From positions 1-46,266 of the forward strand of contig PWYW01000072.1 of assembly GCA_003567685.1 (NCBI GenBank): 46,266 bases of DNA. The letters are read 5' to 3'. Position 1 is the first letter of the stretch. Each line of letters begins with the position of its first letter. The notes below the pieces were generated by a model. That model ran no database searches. It was not told the origin of the DNA and saw only the letters and a list, made by a program, of their open reading frames with translations. Origin of the DNA: Gammaproteobacteria bacterium. GTDB lineage: Bacteria; Pseudomonadota; Gammaproteobacteria; Xanthomonadales; Wenzhouxiangellaceae. This document shows, in pieces, positions 11,819 to 45,013 of this stretch. Made by a program: the position numbers and the translations under genes.

Positions 11819-11842
11819 CAAGAAGGCCTCTTGTCTGGCGGG

Positions 11843-13405: not shown

Positions 13406-13493
13406 GGTCGATGATCGGCCATTGATAATGAACCAGCCCGACACGCTAACAGGGCTTTATGACAATTCGGTTGCACTCTCGAGACAAGCATTC

Positions 13494-15202: not shown

Positions 15203-18200
15203 ATGAACATCAACTCGTCTGTTCTTAGGGGGCTTCTCGGCCTGGTTTTCGTCGTTGCTCTCATTGGAGCAACCACCGCTGAGACTCGGTTCGATTCCGG
15301 GTTTGATGATGGCGTCGTCGGCCCGGTCAGTCCCGGGCCCGATCTCGGTGGTTTTCAGACATTTGCGCCGCTCGTGGCCGTACCCGATGTGCGGGATGAG
15401 CCTTCGCCGGCCCTGCCGCGCGGTGCCGACCTCTCCTTCCTTGAAGATGCCGGGTCCTGGCTCCTGACCCAGCAACAGCCGAACGGTGGTTTTCCCTGGT
15501 CGCCCGGAACCACGGCAACCCAGGCAAATATTCAGGCTCCCATTGGTCTTGGCCTGCTGTATGCCTGGCGACGGACCGGGAATACCGACTTCCTGACCGC
15601 GGCCGTGGAAGCGGGCGATTTCTTGTTCGACAACCCCAACACCTTCGCAAATGGCAGCCGTCGTTTTTCTGCTGCCGACGCTCTGTTTTTCGTCGAGTTG
15701 AGCAGTGTCTCCGGTGATCCAAAGTATCGAGAAGAAATTGATGCTGAATACTGGGGCCCCTTGGCGGCCGGCACCTACGGCCCAGACGCTGATTGGAATG
15801 CGGCTGATTATGCGGCGGCCGTCGTTGGTAACCGCCTCAATGCCAACATTGTCGCCCTTGCTGCCTGGGACCTTGGGTTCGTCAGCGTTGCTGCCAGTCG
15901 AAGTGCACAACCAGCCATCCGGCAGCAGATTGATGACGCCATTGTTGGCGTCCTGGAATTGGTCGACAACGAAGGTGACTTTCCGCTCGATTTGTTCGGT
16001 CTGACGGGTGCCGTCTGGGCGGGCGCCATTGCCGGCGAGGATTTGAACCCGCAGGCGGGCATATGGGCGTCGGCAACGACTACTGAAGGCCTGGCGAGTC
16101 TGCTGGCTGGCTACCAACTCCCAAGCGGCGGAATGCCGGGTAGCACGGGTAGTACAACGCCGGTTTCCCAGGCGACCGCTTTTTCTGTACTCGGGTGGGA
16201 AACGCTGGATAGTGCCACCTTCGCCAGCAATCTGACTTCTGCCACCTCTTTCCTGGCAGTGCTGCAACAGCCGGACGGTCAGATTCTGAATGTTCTCGGC
16301 GGCGACCCACTTCAGGCAGGCGGAGTGGAGACGCATGCCGAATCGATGGCGGCCTTTGCCTTGAGTCGGCTGGAGGCCGACCTGTCGGTGGCAGTTTCGA
16401 CCGGGCTGGTTGATCCCGTGCCGCCACTGGAGTCGGGTTGGGCGCATTTCACGGCCGAGTTGAGCAACGACGGTGCTGGCACTATCGAGAACGTATTGCT
16501 GTGGGTTGAAGTTGACGGCATTGATGATGCCGCGAAATCCGGCGTGCCCGAGTTGCGTCTCGAGTACTGGGCCGATGGCGCCTGGGTCGAGCTGGCCTGG
16601 GCCGGCAGCGGGTTCCATGGTGCAATCGGTCGCGACGGCTGGTTCCTCGGCCGTGATGGCTCAGGTGGTGTGCCTGGTTTCGCGGTTGGTCCGGATTTTG
16701 ATGAGGCCATTTCGCTGCGGGCCAATTTCCCCAATGATCTTTACCAGGCCCAGATTTCCGTCGAGAGCCTGGATTCAAGTTTTGCCAACGCTGCCAGCGG
16801 CAGCGTGATTTATTTTTCCGACAGCGTGACCTTGCCGGTTCAGTCCAACCCGGTTGACGTCGTGTACGTGGATGACGCCTATGAGGGCGCCCAACCCGGC
16901 GACACGCTCAGCTTTACGCTGCCCGATGCCAGCACGGTCACCGTTGTCTTCGGGATCGATGCCTTCGATGATTTGCAGTCGGGTATTAACGCAGCAGCGG
17001 CGGATGGACAGGTGTTTGTTCGCGGTGAACATGAAACGTCGGGCCAGATCCTGATCGACCGGAATCTGGAAATCCAGGGTGCGGATCTTGTCGATCGGGC
17101 AGTCATTTCGCCGGCCTCTGATTTGCCCGGTGCCAATTCGGCTGACGCCTGGATACTGGTGAGTGAAAACGTCGATTTTCGCTTGGCCGATCTCATTCTG
17201 GATGGCGGATCGCAACTGGTGCGGCAGGGTCTGCGTAATCATGGCCAGACGTCGATCGAGGGCGTCAGTTTCCGGAATATCCAGGAGTCCCAGTATCGCG
17301 GGAACGCGGTGCTCAGCTTTGGTGGCATTGTTGCCGGTGGTGCCGGTGGCGACAGCCACGCCTCTCCCGGCTTGGCTGCCAGTACGTTGACGGTGACCGA
17401 TTCGGACTTCGAGCAGATCGGCCGCGTCGCTATTTTGGTCAAGGGAACCGAAGCCACGGCAACGATCAGTGACAATCTTTTCCAGGGCAAGGGTGATGGA
17501 GATTTCCTCGACTACGCGGTAGAAATTGGCGCCAGCGGTGCGGCCACCATCACGAATAACGAGATCCGTGACAATCGAGGTATTGCCTCTGCTGATGGAT
17601 CTGTTTCAGGCGGGATCCTTGTTTCCACATTCTTTGGCACCTCCCCACCCAGTTCCGCGACTATCAGCGGCAACACTATCGAGGACAGCGCCATTGGCAT
17701 TGCCCTGGGTTTTGGTGCAGCCGATTCGGTTGATGTGTCCATTGCCGGAAACACCCTGGCCAATAACGATATCCAGCTGCGCACGTCTTTCGATGACAGC
17801 GGACTGATCGATCAGGCGCTGGCGGATAACGCTTTCGATCAGGCGGTGGTCGTCACGGGTGTCGAGACCACGATCTTCTCCACCATTGCTCAAGCCGTGG
17901 ATGCCGCTGATGTTGGCGCCACGGTACAGCTGGCAACCGACATCACTGAGGGGCTGGTTGCCTTGAACAAGCCGCTGAGCCTGGACGGTGACGGGTTCAC
18001 CCTGACGTCCACCTCGGCCAACTTCGGTGTGTCCATCCAAAGTGTTGATGTCGAAGTGCGCAACCTGAAGGTCGATGGCGCCGGGACCTTTGGCATCCAT
18101 CAGTCACCGGGCAGCGATGGCCTGACCATCGAAAACACCACCGTGCAGAATGGTGGCGGCAGCGGCTTTGCCCTGAATTGTTCGGACAACGCCACTCTGG

Positions 18201-21200
18201 CCGATATTTCTGCCTTTAATAACACCGGCACTGGCGTGTCGATCACTAACAGCAACAATGTCACCATTGATGGTCTGACGACCTCAGGCAATGCCTTTGC
18301 AGGCGGATTCAGCGCCGGCGTTGGCATTTTCTCCAATTCAGCCACCTGTTCCCCTGATGGCACCAGCGATGTCACCATCACGGACAACTTCAGCGCAGCC
18401 GAGCCAATCCCGGTTTATGAGCAGACCACGACCGGCAGCATTGCCAATGTCGCTGTGCCCTCGGGCCTGACCCATGCGACGGGCATAGGTCAGATTTCCT
18501 TGTTCTATCAAACGAGCCTGGCCAACGCGGTAGACGTCGCCGAAGCCTTTATTGCTGGCGATCCGGCGCTGCAACCGCTCGTCTTTGCTCGTGAATTGGG
18601 CGGTCCTTTCCAGGTTGAAGACGCCATGTCCATCCAGGCCGCCATCAATGCTGCCGAGGACGGTGCCACCATTGCCGTGGCCGCCGGGAGCTTTACTGAA
18701 AACCTGGATTTATCCAACCGTAACGGACTCATCCTGCTGGGCGCCCAGGCCGGCGTGGGTGCCGGTGTGGCCGGTCCGCGTGACGCTGCCAGCGTTACGG
18801 ATGAGTCGATCATCATTGGCAGCCTGGGCTTTGGCGGCGGCACGCCAACCGTGGCCGACCTGGCGATCGATGGCTTCCGGCTCGAGCAGGCCAGCCTGGT
18901 CAACAACGGTGCCCGGATCAATGGCACGCTTGAGCTGCGCAACCTGGTGGTGGATTTCACCACCACGTATTTCCTGATCAGTGTGGGCACGGGCTCAGGC
19001 CACGAACTGGTCCTGCTGGATTCAACCCTCAGCGGCCAGCGGGGCTTCTCGATCGGCAACGCCCAGGTTACCCAGGCGACGATCAGCGGCAATGTCTTCA
19101 ACCAGTCTGCGGCCAGCCTGGTCTCGGCCAGCGCGCTTGATGGCGTGCTTGATCTGACCGGCAACCAATTCAATGGCCCGCGCGGGCTGAATCTGTTGAC
19201 CAATAACAACGTCATCAGCAACAACGTCTTCAATGTCGTCGACGTTGATGGCCAGCAACGCGGGATCGATCTCTACGAAGTGACCGGCAACGCGATCGAA
19301 GACAACGTCTTTAATACAGACGACGCGATCGGTATTTTGGTCATAGCCGGCGGGCGCAACGAAGCGGTCCTGGATAACGAGATCACGAACAATCAGTTCC
19401 TTGGATCGAACGCCAGCGGCGTAGTGAACTCCATCGCCGGCAAGAGTGTTGACGCATCCTGCAACTGGTGGGGTGCGGCGGACGGCCCGTCGGGCGATGG
19501 CAGTGGATCTGGCAGTGCAGTCGCCGGCGAGATTGACTTCGAGCCCTGGCAAACGTCTGTTGAAGGTGCCTGCGACGGCTTTGCTTCTCCGGTTACCCGT
19601 CTCAGTGACGGTGCGATATTCCCCAGCTTCAGCGATGCCATCAATGATCCGGACACCCTGGATGGCGAAACCCTGACCGGAAGTGCGGCGACCTACGAGG
19701 AGAATATCGTGGTCAACAAGGCCGTCACCATCGCGGGTGCCGGGCCCGATACCGTGATCGAAGGCGGCGGTGCCGCCGGGAATGGCATCACCATTCCCAA
19801 TGGTCAGGCCGGCGTAACCATTCGCGAACTTCGCGTACAGAACTTCGGCGGCAACTGCATTTTCGGTGCACTGTCGAACCACAACACGACCATCCATGAT
19901 GTTGAGGTGGACAGCTGCCTGGCATCCGGCGCTGGCGGCGGCATTTACCTGAATGGCCCGGTCGATAACGTCAGCATCACTGATTCCACGGTTACCAACT
20001 CGACCACACGTGGCATCGTGATCTGGAATGGCTTCAAGACCAATATCACTATCAGCGGCAATACCGTCAGCGGCAACAATTGCTGCGGTATCGAACTGCA
20101 GGATGGCACCGCCTCTGGCGTGACCATCACTAACAACACGGTCACCGGCAACGGCGACAACGGGATCGGCGTGGTTGGTTTGACCAGCGGTGCCGGTCCC
20201 AACCTGATTGCCGAGAACACCGTGACCGACAACGGTCGCTTCGGTATCGAGGTCAAGCTGCCCGATGGCTCCACCACGCTCGACGAGAGTGCCGATGGTG
20301 CCGTTGTTGTGCGCGACAACCAGGTCAGCCTGAACAGCAGTGTTACCGACTTGCGCGACCTGGCCGGCATCGCCGTTTTCCGGCGCGGCTGGGTAGCCGG
20401 CGCAAACAACGTCGACATTCCTACCGGCGTGATCGTGCGCAACAACACCGTCAGCGGTTATCGCCAGGACAATGCGGCATCCTTCAGTGACGGCTTCGGG
20501 ATCGTCGTCGAAGGCACCAACATCCGCGTGTTTGACAATACCGTCGACGACAACGATGTTGGCATTCAGCGCCAGTCCGGACACCTGCCTTACACACCGA
20601 ATACGAATGTCGACGGCGATCAAGGCAACCTGGATGACGACTATTTCGGCCGCGGTAACAGCCCGGTGGTCTGCGCCTTGGTTGCTGACAATCTGTTCAG
20701 TGGCAATAGCATTGACCAGAGGGACGTTGCCCAAGCTGGAGCGCCTGACCCGAGCGGGCAGGTCGTCAACGTCTCCACAGACCAGTTCTTCTGCAGCATT
20801 CAGGATGCGATTGATGCCGCGGATACCGAAGCTGGGCACGTGATTGAAGTTGGTGCGGCGACGTTCGAAGAAACCGTTCTGGTCAACAAGTCCATTACCC
20901 TGCAAGGTGACCCGAGCGGCGCCGATCGTCCGGTCATCACCTTCGGCAGCGTGCCGGCCGAGTCCAGCCTGATTCGGGTTCAGGCTCAGGATGTTGTCAT
21001 CGATGGCTTCGACCTGATCGTCGATCAGAGCTTTATTGGCGAAGGTATCCGTTCGGTGGGTAATGCCGCCGGCCTGGTCATTCGTAATAACCGGATCAGT
21101 GCTGAACCCAGCGATCCATCTGCCCTGGTTCCATTCGGTGTGCGCAATGCGATTGGCCTGAACCTGTCCGTGCGACCGGATTCGGTCGGAAGTGGCTTCG

Positions 21201-24200
21201 GTCCTGTGACCATCGAGAACAACGACATCGTGGCCAATCCGGCCGGTGTCGGCATCGCCGGATTCTTCCGCGCCGGTGTCGCGATGGATACCGTGCACGG
21301 CACGCTGACCGGCAACGACATCCAGTCCTTCAGTCATGACGCCATCATCCGCTTTGTTCTGGGTGGAGAAATCGTGGTTGACGACAACACGTTCCGTGGC
21401 GGCGGCTTGCAGTTCAACGAGTTCAACCCGACCGCTCCAGCCCTGATCAGCAACAACCGCTTCCTGCCGGATGCGGACCTGGTCCAGGCGCTGGCCGGCG
21501 GCCAGTCCTCGTTGCGCCTGCAGAACAACCCGAACAGCATCGCCACCACGGTCAGCGACAACGAATTCACGGGTCATACCACGGCCGTCCGTGCCGAGAA
21601 CTACCCGGCCCTGGCAATTACTGGCAACCAGTTTGCGCCGGCCACTGGCCTGGCCTACCAGCACTTGGTGGTCAGCAACCGGGTCAACGCCTCCAACTAC
21701 ATCGCGCCGCTGGAAGTCGATATCGCTGTTGATGGCAATGACTTCCTGGGCGGCGTGGAGCCTGGCACCGCGATCGTCTTCGATAATCTGAACTGCTGCG
21801 AAAGCGTGGGCTCAGGCAGCACAACCGCCAGCTTCGGCGATCTGCGCCTTGGCGGAACCGCGCCCAACATTTTCGATGGCAGCCTGGCCCAGTACATCGT
21901 GCTGGACGACACCGATGGCCTGGTCGACTTCGGCCTGGCCGAGTCGGAGGCCCAGCCGTTCTTCACCGATGTTGATGCCCAGGGCAATATCTGGGATGGC
22001 GTTGCCGGCGCGGATCAGACCGCCGCCCAGCGCCAGGCCACTCGCGATCGAATCGTCGACCGTTTCGTCAACAATGATCTGGGCGAGGTCATTCTCGAGG
22101 GGCAAGATAGCCTCACCGTAGAGCTTGTTGGTCTGGCTGCCGGCTATGCGCCGGGCGACAGCCAGACCGGCGATGAGCTGGCTCGGTTCAGCCACGACGA
22201 TGTCGCCGGCAGTATCGACCAGATCTTCAACGTCTTCACCATTCTGGATGCCAGTGGCAACCCGATTTCGGCGGCCCAATATGACGAGCTGTTCGTCAGC
22301 TTCACCACCGATCCGGCCGACTACATCCGCAGCCTTTCCGGCACCACCGTGGCTAATGTTGTCGCGCCCGATTCAATCGATGTCAGCTTGCTGTTCGAGC
22401 TTCAGCCCGACGCACCGTTTGGCGAGTACGAGCTGGTGCTGACCAGCTTTGATGTCACTGGCGTCGTTCCGACCGAGGTCAATCTGGGCGACGCCCTGGC
22501 CGGTGAATATTTCGTGCTCGATAGTGCCAGCCAGTTCATCAGCGTTCGCCCGGATACCGTCTTCGTCGACGACGATTTCGCCGGGCTGTCAGCGGGTGAT
22601 CCGGTCGTATTCGACCACCCCGAACTGGGCGCGCCGGTCAATGCCACCTTCGGCATCGACGCCTTTGCCACCGTGCCCGCCGGCCTTGGTGCAGTCAATA
22701 ATGGAGGTCTGGTATTGGTCGCCGAAGGCCAGTATCCAGGTGGCAATCTGATGCTGGACGGCAGCCAGCGACTGATTGGCGCTGGTGCCGACGTCACCGT
22801 GCTTGGCGCCGAGGAAGGGGGCTGGCCGAGTGGTCAACTGGGCGACGTCATCGTGGGCTCCGACAATGTCGAGATCGCCAGCCTGCAGATTCATGGCTAC
22901 GACTCTTTCCGGATTGACACCGCCGTGGGCGGGGTGGAAAACATTGTTATTCGTGACAACCGCCTGAGGAAGGGTAATCAGCACGGTATCGTCGTCGATG
23001 GTCGCAACTGGAGAATCACGGAGAACGTCATTGAGGATGCCGGGCAGGTTCTGCCGCATCTGGGTATCCTCGGCGGTTTCCTGGATTTTGCCGAGGACAT
23101 TCTGGTTCGCGGTAACACCATCCGTGGCAGTGCCGCGACCGGTGTGTTCATTCAGGGCGGCCCGGGCATTGTCCTGCTCAATAACGACATTGAAGACAAT
23201 GGTGGCTTTGGTGCCGCCAGCAGTGCCCAAGCCTTCATGGGCTACAACCGGGCTCGGTCTGTTCCGAATCCGGCTATTGATGTCAGAACTGGCGATAGCG
23301 TCGTCCTGTGCAATCAGGTTCTCGCCAACGCCGATGGCAGCGCCTCGGAGGTTCGTGCGACCGATAGTGATGCCTTTGTCAGTCTGAATGCGCTGTTTGA
23401 TAGCGCCAGCATCGCCAACACGGGTGCCGGTCAGCTGGATGCCACGGAAAACTGGTGGGAAGCTGGCCCGTTGACCGACGGAGATGTTCTGGTCGACCCC
23501 GAACTGGATGCCTTCGATGATTATTTGTCCCTGTGCTTCCCGACGCCGGAACTGAATTTCTCGGCACCGAGCGTCCAGCCGGGTGGCACCGTCGCCCTGA
23601 CCGTGTCGGTTGAAAAACCGGTGGCTATCGCCAGCGGTGGTTTCGACATTGGCCTTGAGGGCGTGGTCTTCGATGTCCCGCTACCGGCGGAATTCGATGT
23701 TGCACTGGTCAATGACGGCTGCGGCACCGCATCGCTGGTGGCCAATGTCCTTATGGTCACCGATGCCGCGCTTCCGGCCGGCACCGATGGCTGCGAGATC
23801 GAGTTGTCCATCAGCACGCTGGACACCGGCACCTACGAGGTATTCTCGTCGGAGTTCTTCAGCCTGGAGACGGGGCTGGGCGGTGTGCCGGGGTCGGCAA
23901 CCTTGCAGGTCGAATCGGCAGCCATCGAACTGGACGGCTTCGACAGCAGCACGCTGACAGTCGCCTTCGAGACCGACGTCGAGGCAACTGGCCTGGCGGG
24001 CGACGCCAGTGCCTGGAATGGCCTGTCGCCAAGCCAGATCGCTGACGCGATTGCCGCTGCCGGAGACCCGGTTGCGGCCAAGCAGCTTTTCCTCGACAGC
24101 TTCTTCGAGATCAGCATCAGTATCGGCGGTGTGCCAACCGTAGTGCCCGCAGTGGCGCTGGATGATTTCGGCGCTGACTGGTCCGCGATCATCATTGACG

Positions 24201-27200
24201 GTACCGACACGCCCGCAGCCTTGACCGTCGAATTCCAGGCCGGTGTCATCGACCTGGACTTCAGCCTTGATCAGGGCAACACCGGTGCCACCCGCATCGA
24301 TGTAGCCTGGACGGGTACCGACAACTTCCAGACGGGTTTCGGCCAGCCGCTGGCCGGTCCGGAACCCGCCGACAACCCGTTCAAGGTCGAGTTCGATGTG
24401 GCCTATGACCTGGCTACCGGCCCGGCTTACGGCCCGGCTACGGCCACCTTCATCGACCGCAGCACGCCGCTGCAGCGGCCGTTTGCGACTGGTATCCAGT
24501 TTGGTGCCACCAGTATCGACCCGGTGGCCATTGACTTCCCTGCCGACACCACCGCCACCGTCAGTTTCAACGGCGGTACGGACGAGCCGTACGCCCCGGG
24601 TGAGGTTCTGGCTGCTGCTGGAGACTATGTCGTGCTGGTCACCAACAACGGCAACCCGGGTATCGTCCCTGGTGCCCAGACGGCAGTTGCCTTCACTATT
24701 GAGCAGGCGACGGTTTCGCTGGCCGGCCTTGGTAGCGATACTTTGACGGCCAACTTCTCGCAGCCGGTAGTCACCCCGGCCGGAGACGGCCCGGCCGACA
24801 TCGCCGCCCTGGCCGTGGATGTGGCCAGCAAGCAGGCCCTGCTGGACGAGTTCTTCGAGATCCGCTTGAGTATTGGCGGGGTGCCGACCCAGGTTCCGGC
24901 CGCAGCGCTGGACGACTTCGGCACCGACTGGAGCAAGGTCCTGTTCGCCGGCACCAGCGACTCGCTGAGCGTGACCTTCGAAGCCGGCGTGATCGATCTG
25001 GACTTCAGCCTGGATCAGGGCAACACCGGTTCCAGCCGCATCGATGTCGAGTGGATCGGCACGTCGGCCTTCGTCACCGAGTCCGGCGGCCAGCCGCTGG
25101 CCGGTCCGGACGCAGCCGACAACCCGTTCAAGATCGAGTTCGACGTGGCCTATGACCTGGCCAGCGGCCCGGCCTATGGCCCGGCCACGGCCACCTTCAT
25201 CGACCGCACCACGCCGCTGCAGCGGCCGTTCGCGACCGGCATCCAGTTCGGTGAAACCACCACCGACCCGGTGGCGATCGAGTTCCCGGCCGACACCATT
25301 GCCACCGTCAGCCTCAACGGCGGTTCGGACGAGCCGTATGCTTCGGGCGAGCTGCTGACCGCTGCCGGTGACTACGTCGTGCTGGTCACCAACAACGGCA
25401 ACCCGGGCATCGTCGCCGGCGCCCAGACCGCGGTCGCCTTCACCATCGAACTGGCCACCGTCACCCTGGACGGCCTCGAGACCAGCACCCTGACGGCGAA
25501 CTTCTCCGAACAGGTGGTCTCGACTGCGGCCGGCTACGACGGCCTGACGCCGGCCCAGATCGCGGCGACGGCAGTTGATCCGGCCAGCAAGGAAACCTTC
25601 CTGCTGACCTTCTTCGACTTCGACCCGGCCGAACTGGGCCTGATCAGCAACTGGACTGCGGTGCAGATTGACGGCACCGACACCGAGCTGAGCGTGACCT
25701 TCAACCCCGGCCTGTTCGACAAGAGCTTCGCCCTTGACCAGGGCAACACCGGTGCCTCGCGCATCGATGCGGCCTGGGATGGCACCGACCTGTTCGAGAC
25801 CCTGTCCGGCCAGCCCCTGGAAGGTCCGGTCGAGTCGGCCTTCAAGCTCGAGTTCACCGTGCCGTACTCCGACACCACTGGCGTTGATTACACCGCCGCA
25901 GTGACCACGACCTTCATCGATGCCGTCAAGCCGATCATCCGGCCGTTCGCACCGGGTATCGAGTCGGGCACTGCCACAACCGACCCCGTGGCCATCAACT
26001 TCGCCACCGGCTCCTACAGCACGGGCCTGGTCGCCGAGTACAGCCTTGACGGCGGTACCGCGGTGGCCTACACCTCAGGCGAGGAGTTGGTCCAGGCCGG
26101 AGCTTATGAGCTGACGGTCACCAATGTCAGCAACCCGAACGTGGAGCCTGGCGCCTCGACCACCATCCGCTTCACCATCGAGGCCGAGCTGGCTATCAGC
26201 ATTGACGGCCCGACCCCGGTGCCGGTGGTCGATGAGCAGTTCTACGAGGTCAGGCTGCAAAACACTCTGGCGACCGAACCGTCGGAAAACGTGATTGGCC
26301 AGGTCATCGTGGCCCGGGCGGCCGGCATTGATGTGGCCGACCTGGTTGTTGATTTCTGCGCCGACTCCGAAGCCGCGGGCACGCCGGAAAACTGTGCCGA
26401 CTGGCTGCCACTGAACCTGGTTGAAGACGGCGGCGAATTGACTGCCACCTTCGGTCCGGGTGCGGGCTTCCCGGTTCCGGTCGGCTATGACGCCACCACC
26501 TTCTTCCGCGTGAGCTTCCTGACCGCCGGCAACTACGATGTCAGCGTCAACGCCCTGGGCGTTGACAGCGACGGCGTGCTCGCCAGCGACAGCATCGGCA
26601 TTGCCGCTACCGAGCTTGCCTTCGACATCGTCGCCGGCACCAGTGGTGTACCGACACCGGACGAAGGCAATGGCTGGGCTTACTACACCGCCACCCTGAT
26701 CAACCAGGGCGACGCTCTGCCCGAGAATGTATTGCTCTGGGTAGAAGTCGACGGCATCGACCAGGCTGAGTTCGACGCGGGCGCCGCGCTGCAGTATTAC
26801 AACCCTGTCACCGAGTCGTGGACCGACTTCGGCTGGGGCATGCACGCGGATATTGACCCGTCCAACCAGCGCGAAGCCTTCTTCCTTGGCCGCGACGGCA
26901 TGGGTAGCGTCACCGGCTTCCCGGTTGGCGACAACGAAGACTTCCCGACAGCGATCCGGGTCAATTTCGACAACGCCATTTATGACCTGACGGTCAGTGT
27001 CGAAACGGCTGATCAGGCAGCTCAGACGTTCATCTACGGTCTGTTCGACGAGCAGATCGCGGTGATCAGCCTTGATGTGAACCTGTCCTTCGAGCTTGAC
27101 CGAGGTGTCGCGGCACCCGTGCAACCGCCTCGCTGGGATTATTTCACCGCCACGCTCAGCAACACCGATGGTGGCGCCACTCCGGACAATATCGTCCTTT

Positions 27201-29749
27201 TCGTCGAAGTGGATGTCACCGACTTCCCTGCCGGCGATCGTCTGCAGTTCTGGAACGGCAGCGACTGGCAAGACTTCGGCTGGGATGCCGGCCGCCAGGC
27301 CTGGTTCCTCGGCCGCGACGGTGCTGGCGGTGTCTCGGGCTTCCCGATCGAGGCCGACGAGGTGTTCCCGATCGAGCTCAGGGTCAACTTCCTGCCAGGG
27401 GATTACGACTTCACGGTCAGCGTTGAAAGCATCGATGACGACATCACCGGCGTCGGCGGCGTTTATGCCCTGTTTGCCGAAAGCGTCGAAGTGCTGCCTA
27501 CCCCGGCCACCATCACCTTCGTGGCGGCGGACCTGGTCCAGACCTTCGACGGCAACGTCAAGACCGTGGGCGTGACCACCGGGCCCGAGGCTGACCTGCC
27601 GGTTGATATCAGCTTCGATCCCGAGCCGCCGATCAATGCGGGCAGCTATGTCGTACAAGCTGTCATCACCGACCCCTACTTCGACGGCAGTGCCACGACC
27701 AGCCTGCTGATCGAAAAGGGACAGGCCGAGGTGATCCTGTCGGATCTCAGCCAGGTCTTCGATGGTGCTCCCAAGCCGGTCACCGTTGAGACCGTGCCGG
27801 CTGGGCTGTCAATCAACGTGACGTACGACGGGTTGACCGATGCGCCAATACCGGTCGGCAGCTACTCGGTCTTCGCCAGTGTTGACGACCCCAACTGGGC
27901 CGGTTCAGCAGCGGGTCTATTGCAGATCACGCCGGCAACGGCAGATGTGACCCTGGTTGGCCTGGAGCAGACCTTCGACGGTTCACCGCGCGTGGTGATG
28001 GCCGATACCGATCCCGCCGGACTGACGGTCGAGATTACCTACGATGGCAGCCCCGTCGCACCGGTTGACGCCGGCAGTTACGCGATCGAGGCGACCGTGA
28101 ACGATGCCAACTTCATGGGCTCGGCAGTGGGTACCTTGATTGTCGATCCGGCAACGGCGGACGTTCAGCTCTCCGATCTGGTTCAGGTCTTTGATGGTCT
28201 GCCCAAGCCGGTCACTGTCATCACCGATCCAATCGGCCTGGCGGTGGAGGTCAGCTACGATGGCGACCCGGCGGCTCCAACGCCAGCGGGTGATTACGCC
28301 GTCACCGCTACGGTTGTCGATCCCAACTACGTCGGTTCGGCGAGCGACACTCTGGTGATTGAGCAGGGCGATCAGACCATCGACTTCCCGATGCTTATGG
28401 ATCGGACGGCAGACGATTCGCCGTTCACCCTGACCGCAACGGCGAGTTCAGGTCTGGCGGTCAGCTTCGAGGTGGTATCAGGACCGGCCACGGTGGACGG
28501 CGATGAAGTGACCCTGACCGGTGGCCTTGGTGAAGTGGTCATTGAAGCGCAGCAAGACGGAGACAGCGACTGGAATGCCGCGGTGCCGGTCCAGCAAGCC
28601 TTCCAGGTGACTGCCGGCCAGGCCGTTGCCATCGAGGCGATCAGCGCCACCAGCATTAGCGGTGTCGCCGGACAACCGATTGCCGCGGCCGACCTGCCGA
28701 CGGTTCGTGCCATTGATGCCAACGAGAACCCGGTCCCCGGAGTCACCGTCGGATTCGCCATAACGGGCGGAAGCGGCAGCATCAGCGGTAGCGTGGCCGA
28801 AACCGACAGCGATGGTCTTGCCCAACTGACCAGCTGGACCCTGGGTGGTGAAAATGTGCAGACGCTCGAGGCCAGTGCACCTTCCGTTGCGGCCGATCCG
28901 GTTGTCTTTACGGCGACGGTTGGTGGTGCGGCCGATGTGACTGTGCAGATAACGGATAACCGCGAGACCATCGAGGTGGGCACGCGCAATACCTACGTAG
29001 TGACCATCGGAAACCTTGGGCCCAGTGCGGTGCCGGAGGCTGAGGTCAGCGTTCCATTGCCGGCCGAGCTGGATCCTGCCACTGCCGAGTGGGTTTGCTT
29101 CCCGGGTAACGGGGCAAGCTGTGCGAGCGAGGGCACAGGGGCTATCAGTGATACGGTCTCGTTGCCGGAAGGTGGTTCGCTGGTCTACATTCTTGAAGCG
29201 GATGTTCGAGTCTTCGATGAGCGCCTGCTGGTGGTGACCGCGTCGGTGGATCTCGGAGCGATCACACCGGTTGATCCGAGTACGCTCATCGATTCCGATG
29301 AAACCTTCATCGAAATCGCCGAGGACTCCCTGTTCCGCGATCGCTTCGAGGCGGATTCGTTGAATGGCGGGCATAGCATGCGGGGTCAGATTCAGGGTTT
29401 CCTGACTCTGCCCGCCAGTATCGAAAGTCTCGGCAAGAGCGCGTTGCTGGTCACCGGGTTTGATGCCGGTGGACGCCAGAACTTGCGGGTCGTGCTGGTT
29501 CAATCAGACGATCAGCGCTGGATTCGCGCCTCGGTTCGTGGTGAGTCCGACCTGTGGGAGCACAGCGATTGGCAATCCTCAGCGCTTCAGGATCGATTGC
29601 TGGCTTTCGAGTTCAACGCGGGTCTGGGCAGCGTTATCCTGGCCGGTGAAGCGCTTGAGGTCATCAGCACTCAGACGCGCCAGGCAGTACTGCCGATCGG
29701 ACGGCTGGAGACACATCGAAGCGTTCGATTCGAGGCCGACTCGATGTAG
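15203..29749 (+). CDS. Giant exported multidomain protein: toroid, beta-helix and Ig-like repeats
   Basis: This uninterrupted frame encodes 4,848 residues. ATG 15203 is chosen because GGGGAA precedes it and a signal peptide follows (VLRGLLGLVFVVALIGATTA, cleavage near residue 27). Domains in order: alpha/alpha-toroid-like (~75-395); FLGRDG domain (~411-547); right-handed beta-helix (~550-2775) with many 'ISGNxI..NN' rungs and NWW motifs; an Ig-like/DUF7933-like segment (~2780-2905); three ~250-residue repeats (2907-3660); an unassigned domain; FLGRDG domains 2 and 3 (~3823-4100); four MBG repeats (~4102-4390); a companion beta domain; Big-1-like and DUF11-like domains; and a tail after LFRDRFE. 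This architecture is typical of surface or secreted adhesins and carbohydrate-active proteins. No autotransporter barrel, RTX repeats, LPXTG or PEP-CTERM anchor is seen. Function is unknown. Confidence 0.9.
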   Translation: MNINSSVLRGLLGLVFVVALIGATTAETRFDSGFDDGVVGPVSPGPDLGGFQTFAPLVAVPDVRDEPSPALPRGADLSFLEDAGSWLLTQQQPNGGFPWSPGTTATQANIQAPIGLGLLYAWRRTGNTDFLTAAVEAGDFLFDNPNTFANGSRRFSAADALFFVELSSVSGDPKYREEIDAEYWGPLAAGTYGPDADWNAADYAAAVVGNRLNANIVALAAWDLGFVSVAASRSAQPAIRQQIDDAIVGVLELVDNEGDFPLDLFGLTGAVWAGAIAGEDLNPQAGIWASATTTEGLASLLAGYQLPSGGMPGSTGSTTPVSQATAFSVLGWETLDSATFASNLTSATSFLAVLQQPDGQILNVLGGDPLQAGGVETHAESMAAFALSRLEADLSVAVSTGLVDPVPPLESGWAHFTAELSNDGAGTIENVLLWVEVDGIDDAAKSGVPELRLEYWADGAWVELAWAGSGFHGAIGRDGWFLGRDGSGGVPGFAVGPDFDEAISLRANFPNDLYQAQISVESLDSSFANAASGSVIYFSDSVTLPVQSNPVDVVYVDDAYEGAQPGDTLSFTLPDASTVTVVFGIDAFDDLQSGINAAAADGQVFVRGEHETSGQILIDRNLEIQGADLVDRAVISPASDLPGANSADAWILVSENVDFRLADLILDGGSQLVRQGLRNHGQTSIEGVSFRNIQESQYRGNAVLSFGGIVAGGAGGDSHASPGLAASTLTVTDSDFEQIGRVAILVKGTEATATISDNLFQGKGDGDFLDYAVEIGASGAATITNNEIRDNRGIASADGSVSGGILVSTFFGTSPPSSATISGNTIEDSAIGIALGFGAADSVDVSIAGNTLANNDIQLRTSFDDSGLIDQALADNAFDQAVVVTGVETTIFSTIAQAVDAADVGATVQLATDITEGLVALNKPLSLDGDGFTLTSTSANFGVSIQSVDVEVRNLKVDGAGTFGIHQSPGSDGLTIENTTVQNGGGSGFALNCSDNATLADISAFNNTGTGVSITNSNNVTIDGLTTSGNAFAGGFSAGVGIFSNSATCSPDGTSDVTITDNFSAAEPIPVYEQTTTGSIANVAVPSGLTHATGIGQISLFYQTSLANAVDVAEAFIAGDPALQPLVFARELGGPFQVEDAMSIQAAINAAEDGATIAVAAGSFTENLDLSNRNGLILLGAQAGVGAGVAGPRDAASVTDESIIIGSLGFGGGTPTVADLAIDGFRLEQASLVNNGARINGTLELRNLVVDFTTTYFLISVGTGSGHELVLLDSTLSGQRGFSIGNAQVTQATISGNVFNQSAASLVSASALDGVLDLTGNQFNGPRGLNLLTNNNVISNNVFNVVDVDGQQRGIDLYEVTGNAIEDNVFNTDDAIGILVIAGGRNEAVLDNEITNNQFLGSNASGVVNSIAGKSVDASCNWWGAADGPSGDGSGSGSAVAGEIDFEPWQTSVEGACDGFASPVTRLSDGAIFPSFSDAINDPDTLDGETLTGSAATYEENIVVNKAVTIAGAGPDTVIEGGGAAGNGITIPNGQAGVTIRELRVQNFGGNCIFGALSNHNTTIHDVEVDSCLASGAGGGIYLNGPVDNVSITDSTVTNSTTRGIVIWNGFKTNITISGNTVSGNNCCGIELQDGTASGVTITNNTVTGNGDNGIGVVGLTSGAGPNLIAENTVTDNGRFGIEVKLPDGSTTLDESADGAVVVRDNQVSLNSSVTDLRDLAGIAVFRRGWVAGANNVDIPTGVIVRNNTVSGYRQDNAASFSDGFGIVVEGTNIRVFDNTVDDNDVGIQRQSGHLPYTPNTNVDGDQGNLDDDYFGRGNSPVVCALVADNLFSGNSIDQRDVAQAGAPDPSGQVVNVSTDQFFCSIQDAIDAADTEAGHVIEVGAATFEETVLVNKSITLQGDPSGADRPVITFGSVPAESSLIRVQAQDVVIDGFDLIVDQSFIGEGIRSVGNAAGLVIRNNRISAEPSDPSALVPFGVRNAIGLNLSVRPDSVGSGFGPVTIENNDIVANPAGVGIAGFFRAGVAMDTVHGTLTGNDIQSFSHDAIIRFVLGGEIVVDDNTFRGGGLQFNEFNPTAPALISNNRFLPDADLVQALAGGQSSLRLQNNPNSIATTVSDNEFTGHTTAVRAENYPALAITGNQFAPATGLAYQHLVVSNRVNASNYIAPLEVDIAVDGNDFLGGVEPGTAIVFDNLNCCESVGSGSTTASFGDLRLGGTAPNIFDGSLAQYIVLDDTDGLVDFGLAESEAQPFFTDVDAQGNIWDGVAGADQTAAQRQATRDRIVDRFVNNDLGEVILEGQDSLTVELVGLAAGYAPGDSQTGDELARFSHDDVAGSIDQIFNVFTILDASGNPISAAQYDELFVSFTTDPADYIRSLSGTTVANVVAPDSIDVSLLFELQPDAPFGEYELVLTSFDVTGVVPTEVNLGDALAGEYFVLDSASQFISVRPDTVFVDDDFAGLSAGDPVVFDHPELGAPVNATFGIDAFATVPAGLGAVNNGGLVLVAEGQYPGGNLMLDGSQRLIGAGADVTVLGAEEGGWPSGQLGDVIVGSDNVEIASLQIHGYDSFRIDTAVGGVENIVIRDNRLRKGNQHGIVVDGRNWRITENVIEDAGQVLPHLGILGGFLDFAEDILVRGNTIRGSAATGVFIQGGPGIVLLNNDIEDNGGFGAASSAQAFMGYNRARSVPNPAIDVRTGDSVVLCNQVLANADGSASEVRATDSDAFVSLNALFDSASIANTGAGQLDATENWWEAGPLTDGDVLVDPELDAFDDYLSLCFPTPELNFSAPSVQPGGTVALTVSVEKPVAIASGGFDIGLEGVVFDVPLPAEFDVALVNDGCGTASLVANVLMVTDAALPAGTDGCEIELSISTLDTGTYEVFSSEFFSLETGLGGVPGSATLQVESAAIELDGFDSSTLTVAFETDVEATGLAGDASAWNGLSPSQIADAIAAAGDPVAAKQLFLDSFFEISISIGGVPTVVPAVALDDFGADWSAIIIDGTDTPAALTVEFQAGVIDLDFSLDQGNTGATRIDVAWTGTDNFQTGFGQPLAGPEPADNPFKVEFDVAYDLATGPAYGPATATFIDRSTPLQRPFATGIQFGATSIDPVAIDFPADTTATVSFNGGTDEPYAPGEVLAAAGDYVVLVTNNGNPGIVPGAQTAVAFTIEQATVSLAGLGSDTLTANFSQPVVTPAGDGPADIAALAVDVASKQALLDEFFEIRLSIGGVPTQVPAAALDDFGTDWSKVLFAGTSDSLSVTFEAGVIDLDFSLDQGNTGSSRIDVEWIGTSAFVTESGGQPLAGPDAADNPFKIEFDVAYDLASGPAYGPATATFIDRTTPLQRPFATGIQFGETTTDPVAIEFPADTIATVSLNGGSDEPYASGELLTAAGDYVVLVTNNGNPGIVAGAQTAVAFTIELATVTLDGLETSTLTANFSEQVVSTAAGYDGLTPAQIAATAVDPASKETFLLTFFDFDPAELGLISNWTAVQIDGTDTELSVTFNPGLFDKSFALDQGNTGASRIDAAWDGTDLFETLSGQPLEGPVESAFKLEFTVPYSDTTGVDYTAAVTTTFIDAVKPIIRPFAPGIESGTATTDPVAINFATGSYSTGLVAEYSLDGGTAVAYTSGEELVQAGAYELTVTNVSNPNVEPGASTTIRFTIEAELAISIDGPTPVPVVDEQFYEVRLQNTLATEPSENVIGQVIVARAAGIDVADLVVDFCADSEAAGTPENCADWLPLNLVEDGGELTATFGPGAGFPVPVGYDATTFFRVSFLTAGNYDVSVNALGVDSDGVLASDSIGIAATELAFDIVAGTSGVPTPDEGNGWAYYTATLINQGDALPENVLLWVEVDGIDQAEFDAGAALQYYNPVTESWTDFGWGMHADIDPSNQREAFFLGRDGMGSVTGFPVGDNEDFPTAIRVNFDNAIYDLTVSVETADQAAQTFIYGLFDEQIAVISLDVNLSFELDRGVAAPVQPPRWDYFTATLSNTDGGATPDNIVLFVEVDVTDFPAGDRLQFWNGSDWQDFGWDAGRQAWFLGRDGAGGVSGFPIEADEVFPIELRVNFLPGDYDFTVSVESIDDDITGVGGVYALFAESVEVLPTPATITFVAADLVQTFDGNVKTVGVTTGPEADLPVDISFDPEPPINAGSYVVQAVITDPYFDGSATTSLLIEKGQAEVILSDLSQVFDGAPKPVTVETVPAGLSINVTYDGLTDAPIPVGSYSVFASVDDPNWAGSAAGLLQITPATADVTLVGLEQTFDGSPRVVMADTDPAGLTVEITYDGSPVAPVDAGSYAIEATVNDANFMGSAVGTLIVDPATADVQLSDLVQVFDGLPKPVTVITDPIGLAVEVSYDGDPAAPTPAGDYAVTATVVDPNYVGSASDTLVIEQGDQTIDFPMLMDRTADDSPFTLTATASSGLAVSFEVVSGPATVDGDEVTLTGGLGEVVIEAQQDGDSDWNAAVPVQQAFQVTAGQAVAIEAISATSISGVAGQPIAAADLPTVRAIDANENPVPGVTVGFAITGGSGSISGSVAETDSDGLAQLTSWTLGGENVQTLEASAPSVAADPVVFTATVGGAADVTVQITDNRETIEVGTRNTYVVTIGNLGPSAVPEAEVSVPLPAELDPATAEWVCFPGNGASCASEGTGAISDTVSLPEGGSLVYILEADVRVFDERLLVVTASVDLGAITPVDPSTLIDSDETFIEIAEDSLFRDRFEADSLNGGHSMRGQIQGFLTLPASIESLGKSALLVTGFDAGGRQNLRVVLVQSDDQRWIRASVRGESDLWEHSDWQSSALQDRLLAFEFNAGLGSVILAGEALEVISTQTRQAVLPIGRLETHRSVRFEADSM
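15425..16390 (+). other. Alpha/alpha-toroid-like domain of the giant protein
   Basis: Residues ~75-395 contain repeated helical pairs with WLLTQQQPNGGFPW, ANIQAPIGLGLLYAW, SATTTEGLASLLAGYQLPSGG and FLAVLQQPDGQI. The Q-x-x-x-GGF/GG pattern at helix ends resembles terpene-cyclase, prenyltransferase and family-10 pectate-lyase toroids. An enzymatic role, for example polysaccharide cleavage, is possible, but the catalytic residues were not identified. Confidence 0.55.
16433..16845 (+). other. FLGRDG domain, copy 1
   Basis: Residues ~411-547 share a line of conserved blocks with two later copies: SGWAHFTAELSNDG, ENVLLWVEVDGID, a short YWADGAWVELAW strand, WFLGRDGSGGVPGF (FLGRDG at 481-486), an acidic and hydrophobic FDEAISLRANF, and YQAQISVESLD. 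I do not recognise a named family. It looks like a beta-sandwich of ~135 residues. Confidence 0.6.
16855..23530 (+). other. Right-handed parallel beta-helix region made of six modules
   Basis: About 2,200 residues are dense in short rungs of the form 'xxIxxNxIxxN' (for example TISGNTIEDSAIGIAL and TITNNTVTGNGDNGIGV), as in pectate-lyase/NosD-like helices. Six segments look like fresh helix starts, near 16950, 17872, 18627, 19613, 20786 and 22650. They have an 'sIqdAIdaA..G..I.V..G.y.E.l.l.k.ltL.G' pattern. NWWG-type motifs occur near 19467 and 23452. Confidence 0.8.
23921..26182 (+). repeat. Three tandem ~250-residue repeats in the giant gene
   Basis: The copies are 23921-24706, 24707-25453 and 25454-26182 (residues 2907-3168, 3169-3417 and 3418-3660). 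Each begins with 'L.GL.SSTLTANFS..V' and continues through FSLDQGNTG, a GTDxFxTxxGQPLxGP stretch, YGPATATFIDRSTPLQRPFA and 'VTNxxNPxxxxGA.T'. Copies 1 and 2 remain very similar at the DNA level, suggesting recent duplication. Copy 3 is shorter and more diverged. Confidence 0.85.
26669..27503 (+). other. FLGRDG domains, copies 2 and 3
   Basis: Copy 2 covers residues ~3823-3960 (NGWAYYTATLINQGD, ENVLLWVEVDGID, FFLGRDGMGSVTGFPVG, YDLTVSVETAD). Copy 3 covers ~3975-4100 (RWDYFTATLSNTDGG, DNIVLFVEVD, WFLGRDGAGGVSGFPIE, YDFTVSVESID). They lie in tandem here, about 3,300 residues from copy 1 in the same protein. Confidence 0.65.
27506..28372 (+). repeat. Four MBG-type repeats of 72 residues
   Basis: The period is 216 bp in the last three copies, which begin near 27725, 27941 and 28157. 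Each has 'V.L..L.QVFDG.PKPV.V.T.P.GL.V.V.YDG....P...GSY.V.A.V.DPN..GSA...L.I', the MBG beta-sandwich repeat found in stalks of large bacterial surface proteins. A QTIDFP companion domain, a Big-1-like domain (28618-28930) and a DUF11-like domain (28931-29320) follow. Confidence 0.8.
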
Positions 29750-29913: not shown

Positions 29914-32691
29914 TTATTTCAAGGATTCAAGCTTTTTGATCTGTCCGCTGAGTTCCTGCACCTTGGACTGGTGGGCGGTCAGGCGTTCGCGTTCCTTTTC
30001 GACCACCTCGGCGGGGGCGTTGGCGACGAAGCGTTCATTGGCCAGCTTTTTCTCGACGCCTTCAAGCCCTTTTTGTTCGCGTTCCAGTTGCTTGTTCAGG
30101 CGGGCCAGTTCTTCGCCGATGTCGACCAGGCCGGCCAGCGGGATCAGCAGGCGCAATTTGCCGGCCAGGGCCACGGCGCAGTCGCCGCTGTCGCGGTCTT
30201 CGGGCACGCGGTCGATGCTGTCGATGCGAGCCAGGCGGCGGATCAGGTCGTTGAATTTCTCCAGCCGCAGGTGGTCGCCGGACTCGCCTTGCTGAATCAT
30301 CAGCGGCATGGGTTTACCGGGCGCCAGGTTCAGTTCGGTGCGCGCCGAGCGAATCGCCGAGATCACGGTTTTCACCCAGTCGGCATCGGCTTCGGCGGCC
30401 TCGTCGATGGCGCCGGCTTCGGGCCAGGCAGCGGACATGATGTGCTCGCCGCCTGCGCCGGCCGGGCCCTTGACCTTCTGCCAGATTTCTTCGGTGACAA
30501 ACGGGATGAAGGGATGCAGCAGTCGCAAGGTGGCGTCCAGTACGGTGGCCAGGGTGTGGCGGGTGGCGCGGGCAGTGGCCGGGTCGTTGGCTTCGGCTTC
30601 TTCGAACAGGGCCGGCTTGGACAACTCCAGGTACCAGTCACAGAACTCGTTCCAGACAAACTCGTACAGCGCCTTGGCAGCGAGGTCGAAGCGGTACTCG
30701 GCCAGGGCTTGTTCCACCTCAACGATGGTGCGGCTGAGCCTTGAGCGAATCCAGCGCGACAGCGTGTCCAGTTCGTCCTCGGCCGGTACCGGCAGGGTGT
30801 CTTCGCCGGTGTTCATCAGGGTGAAGCGCGCGGCGTTCCAGAGCTTGTTGATGAAGTTGCGGTAGCCCTCGCAGCGGGCCAGATCGAACTTGATGTCGCG
30901 GCCGTGGCCGGCCAGTGCGGTAAAGGTGAAGCGCAGGGCATCGGCGCCGAAGGCCGGGATGCCGTCGGGGAATTCGTCGCGGGTGGCCTTTTCGATCTTT
31001 TTGGCCAGCTGCGGCTGCATCATGGCGCTGGTGCGCTTGGCCAGCAGGGCGTCCAGCTCGATGCCGTCGATCAGGTCGATCGGGTCCAGCACGTTGCCCT
31101 TGGACTTGGACATCTTCTGGCCGTCGCGGTCGCGGATCAGGCCGGTGATGTAGACCTGCTCGAACGGCACCTTGCCGGTGAAATGGCCGGTCATCATGAT
31201 CATCCGGGCCACCCAGAAGAAGATGATGTCGAAGCCGGTGATCAAGACGGACGACGGCAGGTAGCGATCAAACCCTTCGGCCTGCATGCGCTCAGGGTCT
31301 GGCCAGCCCAGGGTGGAATGCGCCCACAGGGCCGAGGAGAACCAGGTTTCCAGCACGTCATTATCCTGGCTTAGCGCGACATCGGCGGCCAGTCCATGCT
31401 TGCTGCGCACTTCGTCTTCGCTGCGCCCGACGTAGATAGTGCCTTGCTCGTCATACCAGGCCGGAATGCGGTGGCCCCACCACAGCTGGCGACTGATGCA
31501 CCAGTCCTGAAGGTTTTCCATCCAGTGGCGGTAGGTGTTGATCCAGTTGCCGGGCACGAACTCGACATCGCCGGACTCGACCGCGTCCAGGCCAAGCTTG
31601 CCCAGTTCGTCCATTTTCACGAACCACTGGTCGGTCAGGTAGGGCTCGATAATCTGGCCGGAACGGTCGCCTCGGGGCACCACCATGGCGTGCGGCTTTT
31701 CTTCCACCAGCAGGCCGGCGGCTTCGAGATCGGCAATGATCTTCCTGCGCGCTTCGAAGCGATCCAGGCCGCGATAGGCTTCGGGCGCGTTGTCGTTGAC
31801 GGTGGCGGTCGGGGTGAAGATGTTGATCGGCTCGAAGCCGTGGCGGCCGCCCACTTCCCAGTCGTTGAAGTCGTGGGCCGGGGTGATCTTGACGCAGCCG
31901 GTGCCGAATTCCATGTCCACGTAATCGTCGGCAATGACCGGAATCCGGCGGCCGGTCAGCGGCAGCTCGACGGTTTTGCCAACCAGGTCGGCGTAGCGCT
32001 CGTCGTCCGGATGGACGGCGACGCAGACATCACCCAGCAGGGTTTCCGGACGGGTCGTGGCCACCACGACATCGCCTTGCCCGTCGGATCGAGGGTAGCG
32101 GATTGACCACAGCTTGCCCTGCTCATCGCTGTTGATCACTTCCAGGTCAGAAATGGCGGTCTGCAGTACCGGGTCCCAGTTGACCAGGCGCGGGCCGCGA
32201 TAGATCAGCCCTTCCTCGTGCAGGCGCACGAAGGTTTCAACCACCGCTTCGGACAGGTCCGGGTCCATCGTGAAGCGTTCGCGCGACCAGTCGGCCGACG
32301 CACCCAGGCGGCGCATCTGCGAGGTGATGGTCGAGCCGGACTCATGTTTCCACTGCCAGACCCGGTCGATGAATGCATCGCGCGAGTAGTCGTCGCGCTT
32401 GCCGCCTTCGCCCTCGATCTGGCGGGTCACCACCATTTCGGTGGCAATGCCGGCATGGTCAACCCCCACCTGCCACAAGGTATCGCGCCCTTTCATTCGC
32501 TGATAGCGAATCAGCGCGTCCATCAGCGTGTGCTGAAAGGCATGCCCCATGTGCAGCGTGCCAGTCACGTTCGGCGGCGGCAACAGAATGCAGTAGGGCT
32601 CACCGCTGCCGGTCGGCTGAAAACAGCCCGACGCTTCCCACTGGCCATACCAGCGCTGTTCAAGATCGTGGGGGTTGTAGGTTTTGTCCAT
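29914..32691 (-). CDS. valS: Valyl-tRNA synthetase
   Basis: This 925-residue class Ia synthetase charges tRNA-Val. It shows [16 protein letters not shown] with the HIGH-box variant HMGH at residues 47-50, and the KMSKS loop at 526-530 ([14 protein letters not shown]). The CP1 editing region lies around residues 200-350. The C-terminal coiled-coil arm ([23 protein letters not shown]) is the ValS-specific tRNA-binding domain. Start ATG 32691 gives the canonical [16 protein letters not shown] longer open frame to 32811 only translates the upstream repeat tract. It is the last gene of the pepA-holC-valS order known in many gammaproteobacteria. The repeat tract between holC and valS may affect co-expression. 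Confidence 0.97.
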
Positions 32692-32706
32692 GAGTAAAAA
32701 GAGCTG

Positions 32707-32829
32707 TAAAAGGTAAAAAGTAAAAGGTGAGAGGTAAAAGGTCAGAGGTAAAAGGTCAGAGGTGAAAGGTGAAAGGCAACGCCAGGCTCCATGCAACCTT
32801 TCACTTTTCACCTTTTACCTTTCACCTAC
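32707..32829. repeat. AAAGGT(G/A) repeat tract with self-complementary arm, holC-valS gap
   Basis: The left arm (32707-32776) has about ten degenerate 6-8 bp units of AAAGGT/GAGGT/AAAGGTCAG. The right arm (32796-32829) is the reverse complement pattern (CCTTTCAC, CTTTTCACC, TTTTACC, TTTCACC). Together they can fold into a long imperfect hairpin with a ~20 bp loop. The right arm overlaps the holC stop codon. Confidence 0.75.
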
Positions 32830-37907: not shown

Positions 37908-38516
<609 letters not shown>

Positions 38517-44353: not shown

Positions 44354-45013
44354 ATGAGCGAAGACCCCGACAAGGACGGCAGCGATGCTGATCAGGCCGA
44401 GACGCCTGACGCACCGCCGCCCCGAAAAGGCAACCCGATCAAGGAAATGTTCCTGCTGGCGGCGCTGTATCTGCCCATGGGCTTTTTCCTGTGGTTTTTT
44501 GCCTCCAGCTTGCTGATGGTGCCCACCCGGCTGGTGGTCGAATGGTTGCTGGTTGGCGTGCACGGCGACGTGTTCGTGTCGCTGTTTCAGGACGGCTACA
44601 TTTTCGAACTGCAGGCCGACCAGCAGGTTCGCAACCCGGAAACTGGCCAGATGATCCCGCTTACCTGGATCATCAACCCTATGATCTATGCCTGGGGTAT
44701 GGCGCTGCTGTTTGGTCTGATCATGGCTACCCCGTTGACGATCAAGCGTCGCCTCTTGCAAATGCTGATCGGATTCATGGTGGTCAGCGTTGTGGCTGTC
44801 TGGGGTACTTACTGGGAGGCATGGCGCGATGTCGCCTTTTTGTTCGGCCCGGATGTGGGCGCCCTGATTGATGAAACCTGGCACACGCCAACCATGATTG
44901 CGCTGTTTTACCAGATGGGCTACCTGATGTTCCCCGCAGTGGTTCCGGTGGCGACCTGGATCTTGATGAACCGGGACTTCATCGAGCGCGAGGTACTCAC
45001 GGGGCGCCACTGA
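44354..45013 (+). CDS. Polytopic membrane protein, possibly of the exosortase-H-associated family
   Basis: The product is 219 residues. An acidic, Pro-rich cytoplasmic N-terminus (~1-28) is followed by four likely TM helices: LLAALYLPMGFFLWFFASSL, INPMIYAWGMALLFGLIMAT, LLQMLIGFMVVSVVAVWGTY and FYQMGYLMFPAVVPVATWIL. Between helices 1 and 2 is a ~50-residue loop (GDVFVSLFQDGYIFELQADQ). The pattern 'INPxIYxxGxxLxxxLxxAT ... QxGYLxxPxxxPxxxW' resembles, from memory, proteins annotated as exosortase-H-associated membrane proteins. That link is unverified, and no exosortase is in the window. It starts 22 bp after purL and precedes gspE by ~95 bp. Function unknown. Confidence 0.55.
   Translation: MSEDPDKDGSDADQAETPDAPPPRKGNPIKEMFLLAALYLPMGFFLWFFASSLLMVPTRLVVEWLLVGVHGDVFVSLFQDGYIFELQADQQVRNPETGQMIPLTWIINPMIYAWGMALLFGLIMATPLTIKRRLLQMLIGFMVVSVVAVWGTYWEAWRDVAFLFGPDVGALIDETWHTPTMIALFYQMGYLMFPAVVPVATWILMNRDFIEREVLTGRH

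Follow-up and report, generated by a model that had tools for sequence, protein, structure and literature searches.

A giant modular exported protein of Wenzhouxiangellaceae and its helix-free C-terminal tag, a candidate sorting or anchoring signal

The proteins that a bacterium displays can be told from their C-terminal tags, and the locus described here raises the question of how an exported protein of 4848 residues would leave the cell and what, near its C-terminus, might keep it there. The window, that is, the whole stretch of 46,266 nucleotides that was analysed (contig PWYW01000072.1), belongs to a Wenzhouxiangellaceae genome of 2.74 Mb in 107 contigs (99.6% complete), and the giant-protein gene is by far the longest of its listed ORFs (Table 1).

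Is this a single gene? The 4848 codons contain one stop only, the terminal one, and GC at the second codon position is the lowest of the three in 25/25 bins of 200 codons each (GC1 0.56–0.72, GC2 0.39–0.54, GC3 0.62–0.89). This coherent bias over the whole ORF argues against a join of out-of-frame pieces and, together with the existence of relatives with the same domain order (see below), makes a gene join unlikely. Tandem arrays inside the gene are limited to two short ones, of 34 and 46 bases. The ATG at 15203 is preceded by GGGGAATCAA, and the N-terminus reads, by eye, as a classical Sec signal peptide, MNINSSVLRGLLGLVFVVALIGATTA; 3′ of the stop codon stands a hairpin with a T run, GGCCGGGTCATGGACCCGGCCTTTTT, partly flagged by the search. 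The downstream neighbour is valS, on the opposite strand (29914–32811), with a hairpin between the two genes, and the upstream neighbour encodes a putative lipoprotein; no partner pore gene was found among these neighbours in the ORF lists. In the window, we found no tRNA and no Rfam RNA. Two other features of the window are worth recording: a gene for a Histone H1-like protein (37908–38516, +; below the NCBIfam cut-off), which contains 18.5 copies of a 15-nt unit (KKASK), lies directly upstream of xerD, and at 10340–13444 (−) a TctA-like permease adjoins an apparent TctC-TctB fusion frame, seen by eye and with no NCBIfam match at E 1e-4.

Table 1. Coordinates, in the window, of the giant-protein gene and of the segments that it encodes.
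Feature	Position	Strand	Evidence
Giant-protein ORF, 4848 aa + stop	15203..29749	+	Translation, codon-position GC
Sec signal peptide, residues 1–26	15203..15280	+	By eye
Alpha/alpha toroid, residues ~76–391	15428..16375	+	Relatives, AF2 model, PDB matches
Domain X1, ~394–549, without assigned family	16382..16849	+	Self matches, DNA repeat D4
Beta-helix block 1, ~550–2301, edges inferred	16850..22105	+	PF13229, PF05048, TIGR03804
Domain Y, ~2302–2450, without assigned family	22106..22552	+	By-eye likeness to same-genus G016 fragments
Beta-helix block 2, ~2451–2778, edges inferred	22553..23536	+	Pfam search, sequence
Three repeats of 244–264 residues, starts 2905, 3169, 3418, without assigned family	23915..26185	+	Repeat comparison
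Domain Z and X2, X3 (copies of X1), ~3662–4101, without assigned family	26186..27505	+	Self matches, repeats
Four MBG_3 domains, 4102–4390	27506..28372	+	PF18887
Big_1-like domain, 25.0 bits (Pfam cut-off 34.9)	28625..28933	+	
DUF11-like domain, 21.0 bits (Pfam cut-off 24.6)	28934..29323	+	
C-terminal tag DSLFRDRFE, residues 4708–4716; FRDRFE = 29333–29350	29324..29350	+	
132-residue C-terminal domain after the tag	29351..29746	+	Conserved in G039, G016, G023, Dokdonella L067

The preliminary description of this DNA, made from its letters alone, had reported an unbroken frame of 4,848 residues with a clear signal peptide, joining a toroid-like domain, about 2,200 residues of beta-helix and Ig-like repeats, and most of this is borne out. 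The frame is intact in translation and coherent in codon-position GC, and the signal peptide is of the Sec type. The toroid is confirmed as a fold: the AF2 model (10-residue pLDDT means mostly 79–96) is a ring of paired helices matching solved toroids in the PDB, and a profile search of the PDB pointed to squalene/terpene cyclase-type chains, a single-sequence search of it having returned nothing useful. Likeness to alpha/alpha toroid proteins (GH88/GH105, GH76, epimerases, terpene cyclases) stops at the fold, with 7–16% identity and no family assignment. The beta-helix share, residues ~550–2778 with one intervening domain and inferred edges, agrees with the stated size of about 2,200 residues; Beta_helix and NosD matches exceed their Pfam cut-offs, and NosD identity itself falls short of its cut-off (TIGR04247, 90.4 vs 300 bits), leaving a common beta-helix only. 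The MBG_3 part of the Ig-like repeats is equally sound (PF18887, 267.6 vs 25 bits, 4 stretches). Domain X1 and the C-terminal domain are poorly modelled (pLDDT below 50 and mean pLDDT 47, respectively). Searches of the full protein gave no T9SS C-terminal domain among NCBIfam models and no two-partner secretion or autotransporter domain in Pfam (E up to 1 in both cases).

The combination of modules had been called unrecognised, which proved too strong. Protein L067 (2632 aa) from a Dokdonella metagenome-assembled genome carries toroid, beta-helix, NosD, MBG_3, Big_1, DUF11, the motif FRDGFE and the C-terminal domain in the same order, with 38% identity to the giant protein over residues 67–399 and 32% over 4219–4820; it is, however, 2,216 residues shorter. 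A second Dokdonella protein, L068, cut by its contig, gave matches, in the same order, to toroid, beta-helix, MBG_3, Big_1 and DUF11. The search for proteins with this domain order, suggested in that description, thus found two that share the core order; both are uncharacterised, and a characterised homologue was not among them. The giant protein is a genuine modular exported protein, but it is not singular.

Within the family, a toroid-X1 query matched 8/43 genomes, the source genome included: the toroid in G012, G007, G033, G031 and G021, and X1 only in G016 and G039. These toroid homologues end in different ways: L065 (992 aa) and L066 (1779 aa) in FADGFE followed by 14 and 6 residues, respectively, and L069 (G031) and L070 (G033), both of ~420 aa, in an IPTL-CTERM-like segment, L070 passing the Pfam cut-off (21.7 vs 20.8 bits) and both standing just below that of NCBIfam (19.5 and 18.2 vs 20.5); the short-type protein of G021 is cut by its contig. 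The pair formed by the tag and the C-terminal domain recurs in same-genus pieces of G039 (FSDRFE), G016 (FSDRFE) and G023 (FQDRFE), with a weak fifth case in G031 (FRDRFE). The C-terminal domain is found once each in 5/43 family genomes, the source genome included (one match being weak, E 0.004), and no paralogue of it was found in the source genome (E up to 10); it therefore goes with the giant protein and not with the tag in general. The earlier statement that no known anchor is visible was literally right, but it missed the candidate formed by FRDRFE and this conserved domain of 132 residues.

The tag itself is not confined to the giant protein. FRDxFE occurs at 14 sites in the source genome, all of them FRDRFE though the fourth position was left free, with 1 site for the reversed-pattern control, and 12/14 lie 0–12 residues before a stop codon. 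The wider pattern FxDxFE gives 40 sites, 39 of which were examined (one identical context was dropped); 26/39 are within 16 codons of the stop, or 25 after removal of one more duplicate. Position 4 is R in 23 of these 25 (two of the 23 being copies of one repeated gene end), and in these R-type sites the first F is preceded by I, L or V in 23/23, D stands at −3 in 17/23, and the tail after the motif counts 0–13 residues; the C-terminal FADVFE and FDDLFE, taken as chance, are counted in the 26/39 and left out of the 23. One Dokdonella genome has 39 FxDxFE sites, which gave 41 rows after fetching, overlaps included; in 30/41 rows (29 distinct) the stop is no more than 7 residues away, and among the distinct ones the fourth position is taken by G (21), D (7) or S (1) and D stands at −3 in 25/29. 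Read across these sequences, the tag consensus is D-x-[ILV]-F-x-D-R-F-E, Dokdonella usually having G for R.

One has to keep in mind that a pattern read backwards can contain an in-frame TAG, so that such a control may understate the background, and we therefore added a control based on position. In three genomes outside the family (G113, G066, and G196), 4/39 FxDxFE sites, out of 41 in all, lie near a stop and none of them in the consensus context; the near-stop enrichment in the source genome is significant (25/39 vs 4/39, Fisher p 1.3e-6). In the control genomes, FADGFE recurs inside one conserved protein, which we take to be ProA. With the reservation that pattern counts miss motif variants, FxDxFE reaches at least 40 sites in 24/43 family genomes and, from a reading of the table, in 2/275 other genomes of the class, G261 (59) and G120 (41). 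Low counts also occur in the family (e.g., 9 sites in G041, with 5 for the control, and 9 in G040), and three same-order genomes of another family have only 4, 14, and 4 sites, so the tag is patchy. As a separate observation, G261 (family f152, of another order), with 59 sites vs 14 for the control, may on these counts represent a second tag lineage. In G016, 15/19 rows are near a stop, a biased figure that is no test since the loci were mostly picked from FxDRFE sites (16 stretches of 64 sites).

A signal peptide was predicted by a rough score in 15/20 complete tagged frames of the source genome vs 3/9 frames with an internal site, and one of these 3 is the giant protein, whose tag stands 132 residues before its end and is thus internal. 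The highest 19-residue hydropathy in the last 60 residues reaches 1.81 among 20 tagged proteins of the source genome (next 1.54), 1.32 among 27 from Dokdonella and 1.42 among 15 from G016, compared with 2.08 for the IPTL controls L069 and L070; 61/62 tag ends are thus without a hydrophobic stretch above 1.54. In the six ends that were tested (E up to 10), the tag is covered by no Pfam or NCBIfam model, the NCBIfam matches in two of the six lying upstream of it, and we found no description of such a tag in the open-licence PMC literature, by tag strings or among the listed matches of wider searches. Short and in most cases without a helix, the tag is a C-terminal mark that exported proteins of Wenzhouxiangellaceae and Dokdonella carry, and it probably acts as a sorting or anchoring signal.

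Which proteins carry it? In the source genome, the carriers include an ExeM/NucH nuclease (522.7 vs 300 bits, 1.3e-156), whose sister NCBIfam model is exonuc_ExeM-GG, a choice_anch_D protein (90.3 vs 45 bits), a protein that weakly matches choice-of-anchor J, a PQQ-dehydrogenase-like protein (partial, below cut-off), and Kelch, FG-GAP, SpoIID-like, beta-helix, and PMP-repeat proteins; several of the scanned carriers have no domain match at all. In G016, the tag comes soon after choice_anch_Q in two proteins (66.1 and 68.8 vs 25 bits) and also ends a partial ExeM-like nuclease, below cut-off. The Dokdonella carriers, whose frames were cut at 1.5 kb, include a homologue of the MXAN_5453 family (6e-57; 193.4 vs 500 bits, below cut-off), a family named by NCBIfam as MYXO-CTERM-anchored, an M36 protease stretch, below cut-off, whose nearest models are those named as myxosortase- or rhombosortase-dependent, and three proteins that match Mep72 in part, below cut-off. 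With the caveat that several of these matches are partial or below cut-off, FxD[R/G]FE thus closes several proteins here whose counterparts in other bacteria terminate in a sorting tag. One tagged gene end, PDGVFADRFEGGSGD, recurs where contigs of the source genome stop (L123, L128, L129, and L131 on contigs C51, C73, C80, and C90); the assembly is thus probably interrupted by a tagged gene that is present in several copies.

On these grounds, we lean towards seeing in the giant protein an extracellular surface protein of Wenzhouxiangellaceae that is held through a non-tripartite C-terminal sorting or anchoring tag, after passage by Sec and then by the type II route. Sec would carry it into the periplasm, as its signal peptide suggests; type II secretion, for which GspD genes are present, would then export it; and the FRDRFE tag would keep it on the cell surface. 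As the tag has no membrane helix, a putative partner in the periplasm or the outer membrane would have to recognise it. Outside the cell, the beta-helix and Ig-like rods would give reach, and the N-terminal toroid would probably handle polysaccharide or cell-wall glycan, a weak indication that comes from the fold only. A role as adhesin, polysaccharide binder or predation factor is plausible. FRDRFE would represent the variant, in this bacterium, of a sorting signal D-x-[ILV]-F-x-D-[R/G]-F-E that closes some two dozen exported proteins of the source genome and 29 in one Dokdonella genome; in the giant protein and its orthologues, the tag precedes an extra domain of 121–134 residues. That this motif constitutes a new class of bacterial C-terminal sorting signal, with the giant protein among its largest clients, we propose more tentatively, giving it somewhat less than even credence.

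No partner for the tag was found among rhombosortase, exosortase, and GspD, looked at in 43 family genomes. GspD is over cut-off in 38/43, the source genome included, and showed no covariation with tag number; indeed, G041 is 98% complete and poor in tags, yet keeps a GspD over cut-off.

The first alternative to anchoring is that the motif directs proteins, as a signal for secretion or targeting, to the type II system or to some other exporter, and that they are then released. The exported types of the tagged proteins (nuclease, protease-like, beta-helix), the presence of GspD and the lack of a membrane segment in nearly all tag ends would all fit; however, we know of no type II substrates sharing a short linear C-terminal tag. 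In addition, GlyGly-CTERM and MYXO-CTERM proteins are kept on the surface in the studied cases, VesC being freed later by autoproteolysis, according to excerpts of PMC13393428 and PMC11980579, and excerpts on the related strain AB-CW3 (PMC7691419) describe protease activity as cell-associated, with none in the supernatant. The same excerpts place type II secretion in the core genome and present outer-membrane anchoring as an assumption of the authors. We consider release fairly unlikely. A folding or stability element without a sorting role (a last beta-strand, a capping strand or a periplasmic quality-control tag) appears quite unlikely: hydrophobic and polar residues do alternate in the motif, which in several carriers comes after an Ig-like or beta-helix domain, but it also follows folds as different as Kelch, nuclease, SpoIID, FG-GAP, and beta-helix, leaves a free tail of 0–13 residues in the R-type sites, and is patchy across the order, unlike a general folding element. 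Finally, that the giant protein is an ordinary modular adhesin whose motif, without function, is common through descent or recombination of 3′ ends is highly improbable, for although identical tagged gene ends stand at several contig ends and four small carriers (L029, L030, L033, and L126) look related by eye, so that some gene ends have been duplicated, the other scanned carriers match different domains or none, the residues flanking the motif vary on both sides, and the motif is kept in both Dokdonella and Wenzhouxiangellaceae.

A surface-retaining tag, the reading that we prefer, calls for comparison with known sorting systems, whose job (that of GlyGly-CTERM, MYXO-CTERM or IPTL-CTERM) it would do without transmembrane helix and basic tail. 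Like the tag, GlyGly-CTERM ends many unrelated exported proteins, extracellular nucleases included, and it is linked to type II secretion, with which it works according to excerpts of PMC13393428 and PMC3237569; the tested tag ends, however, have no Gly-Gly signature, hydrophobic helix or basic tail. Its enzyme, rhombosortase (TIGR03902), is over cut-off in 0/43 family genomes, the source genome included, with weaker matches in 42/43 and in all 14 control genomes, and was rejected as tag partner. MYXO-CTERM, the myxosortase signal, is alike in its dozens of copies per genome and in related passengers (the MXAN_5453-family homologue and the M36 stretch), but the tag has no invariant cysteine, helix or Arg cluster.

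The third comparison is with IPTL-CTERM/exosortase H and PEP-CTERM. The likeness lies in the choice-of-anchor domains and in L069 and L070, which end in an IPTL-CTERM-like manner where others have FADGFE; exosortase gave no match in G031, G033, and G021, the genomes with the short toroid proteins, so that the IPTL-like ending is not a proven sorting signal there and the comparison is weaker. The difference is that no CTERM model matches the tag in the six tested ends and that no exosortase was detected in the source genome (PF09721, 0 matches; 23/43 family genomes have one). The window also encodes, at 44354–45013 (+), an Exosortase-H-associated membrane protein (NF041730, 124.9 vs 35 bits), to which tblastn found nothing similar in the ~3-kb loci that surround the exosortase-like genes of G016, G025, and G039; a missed or lost exosortase is thus possible in the source genome, where this gene may have been orphaned when XrtH was lost, unless XrtH escaped detection. 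G002, G004, and G006, 99% complete and without exosortase match, have 59, 47, and 61 FxDxFE sites, which speaks against exosortase dependence; like rhombosortase, exosortase was set aside as tag partner.

According to excerpts of PMC11980579, MYXO-CTERM, GlyGly-CTERM, and the sortase and exosortase tags are tripartite, and C-terminal sorting tags are said to be able to work inside proteins, which makes the internal place of the tag in the giant protein less strange. If our reading is right, a considerable share of the surface proteome would bear the tag, in Wenzhouxiangella and in Dokdonella alike, and the tag would suggest a way for these bacteria to hold their digestive enzymes at the cell; excerpts of PMC7691419 describe AB-CW3 as a contact-dependent predator of Gram-positive cells. 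A helix-free tag of this kind would then fall outside the tripartite scheme that known sorting-enzyme systems follow.
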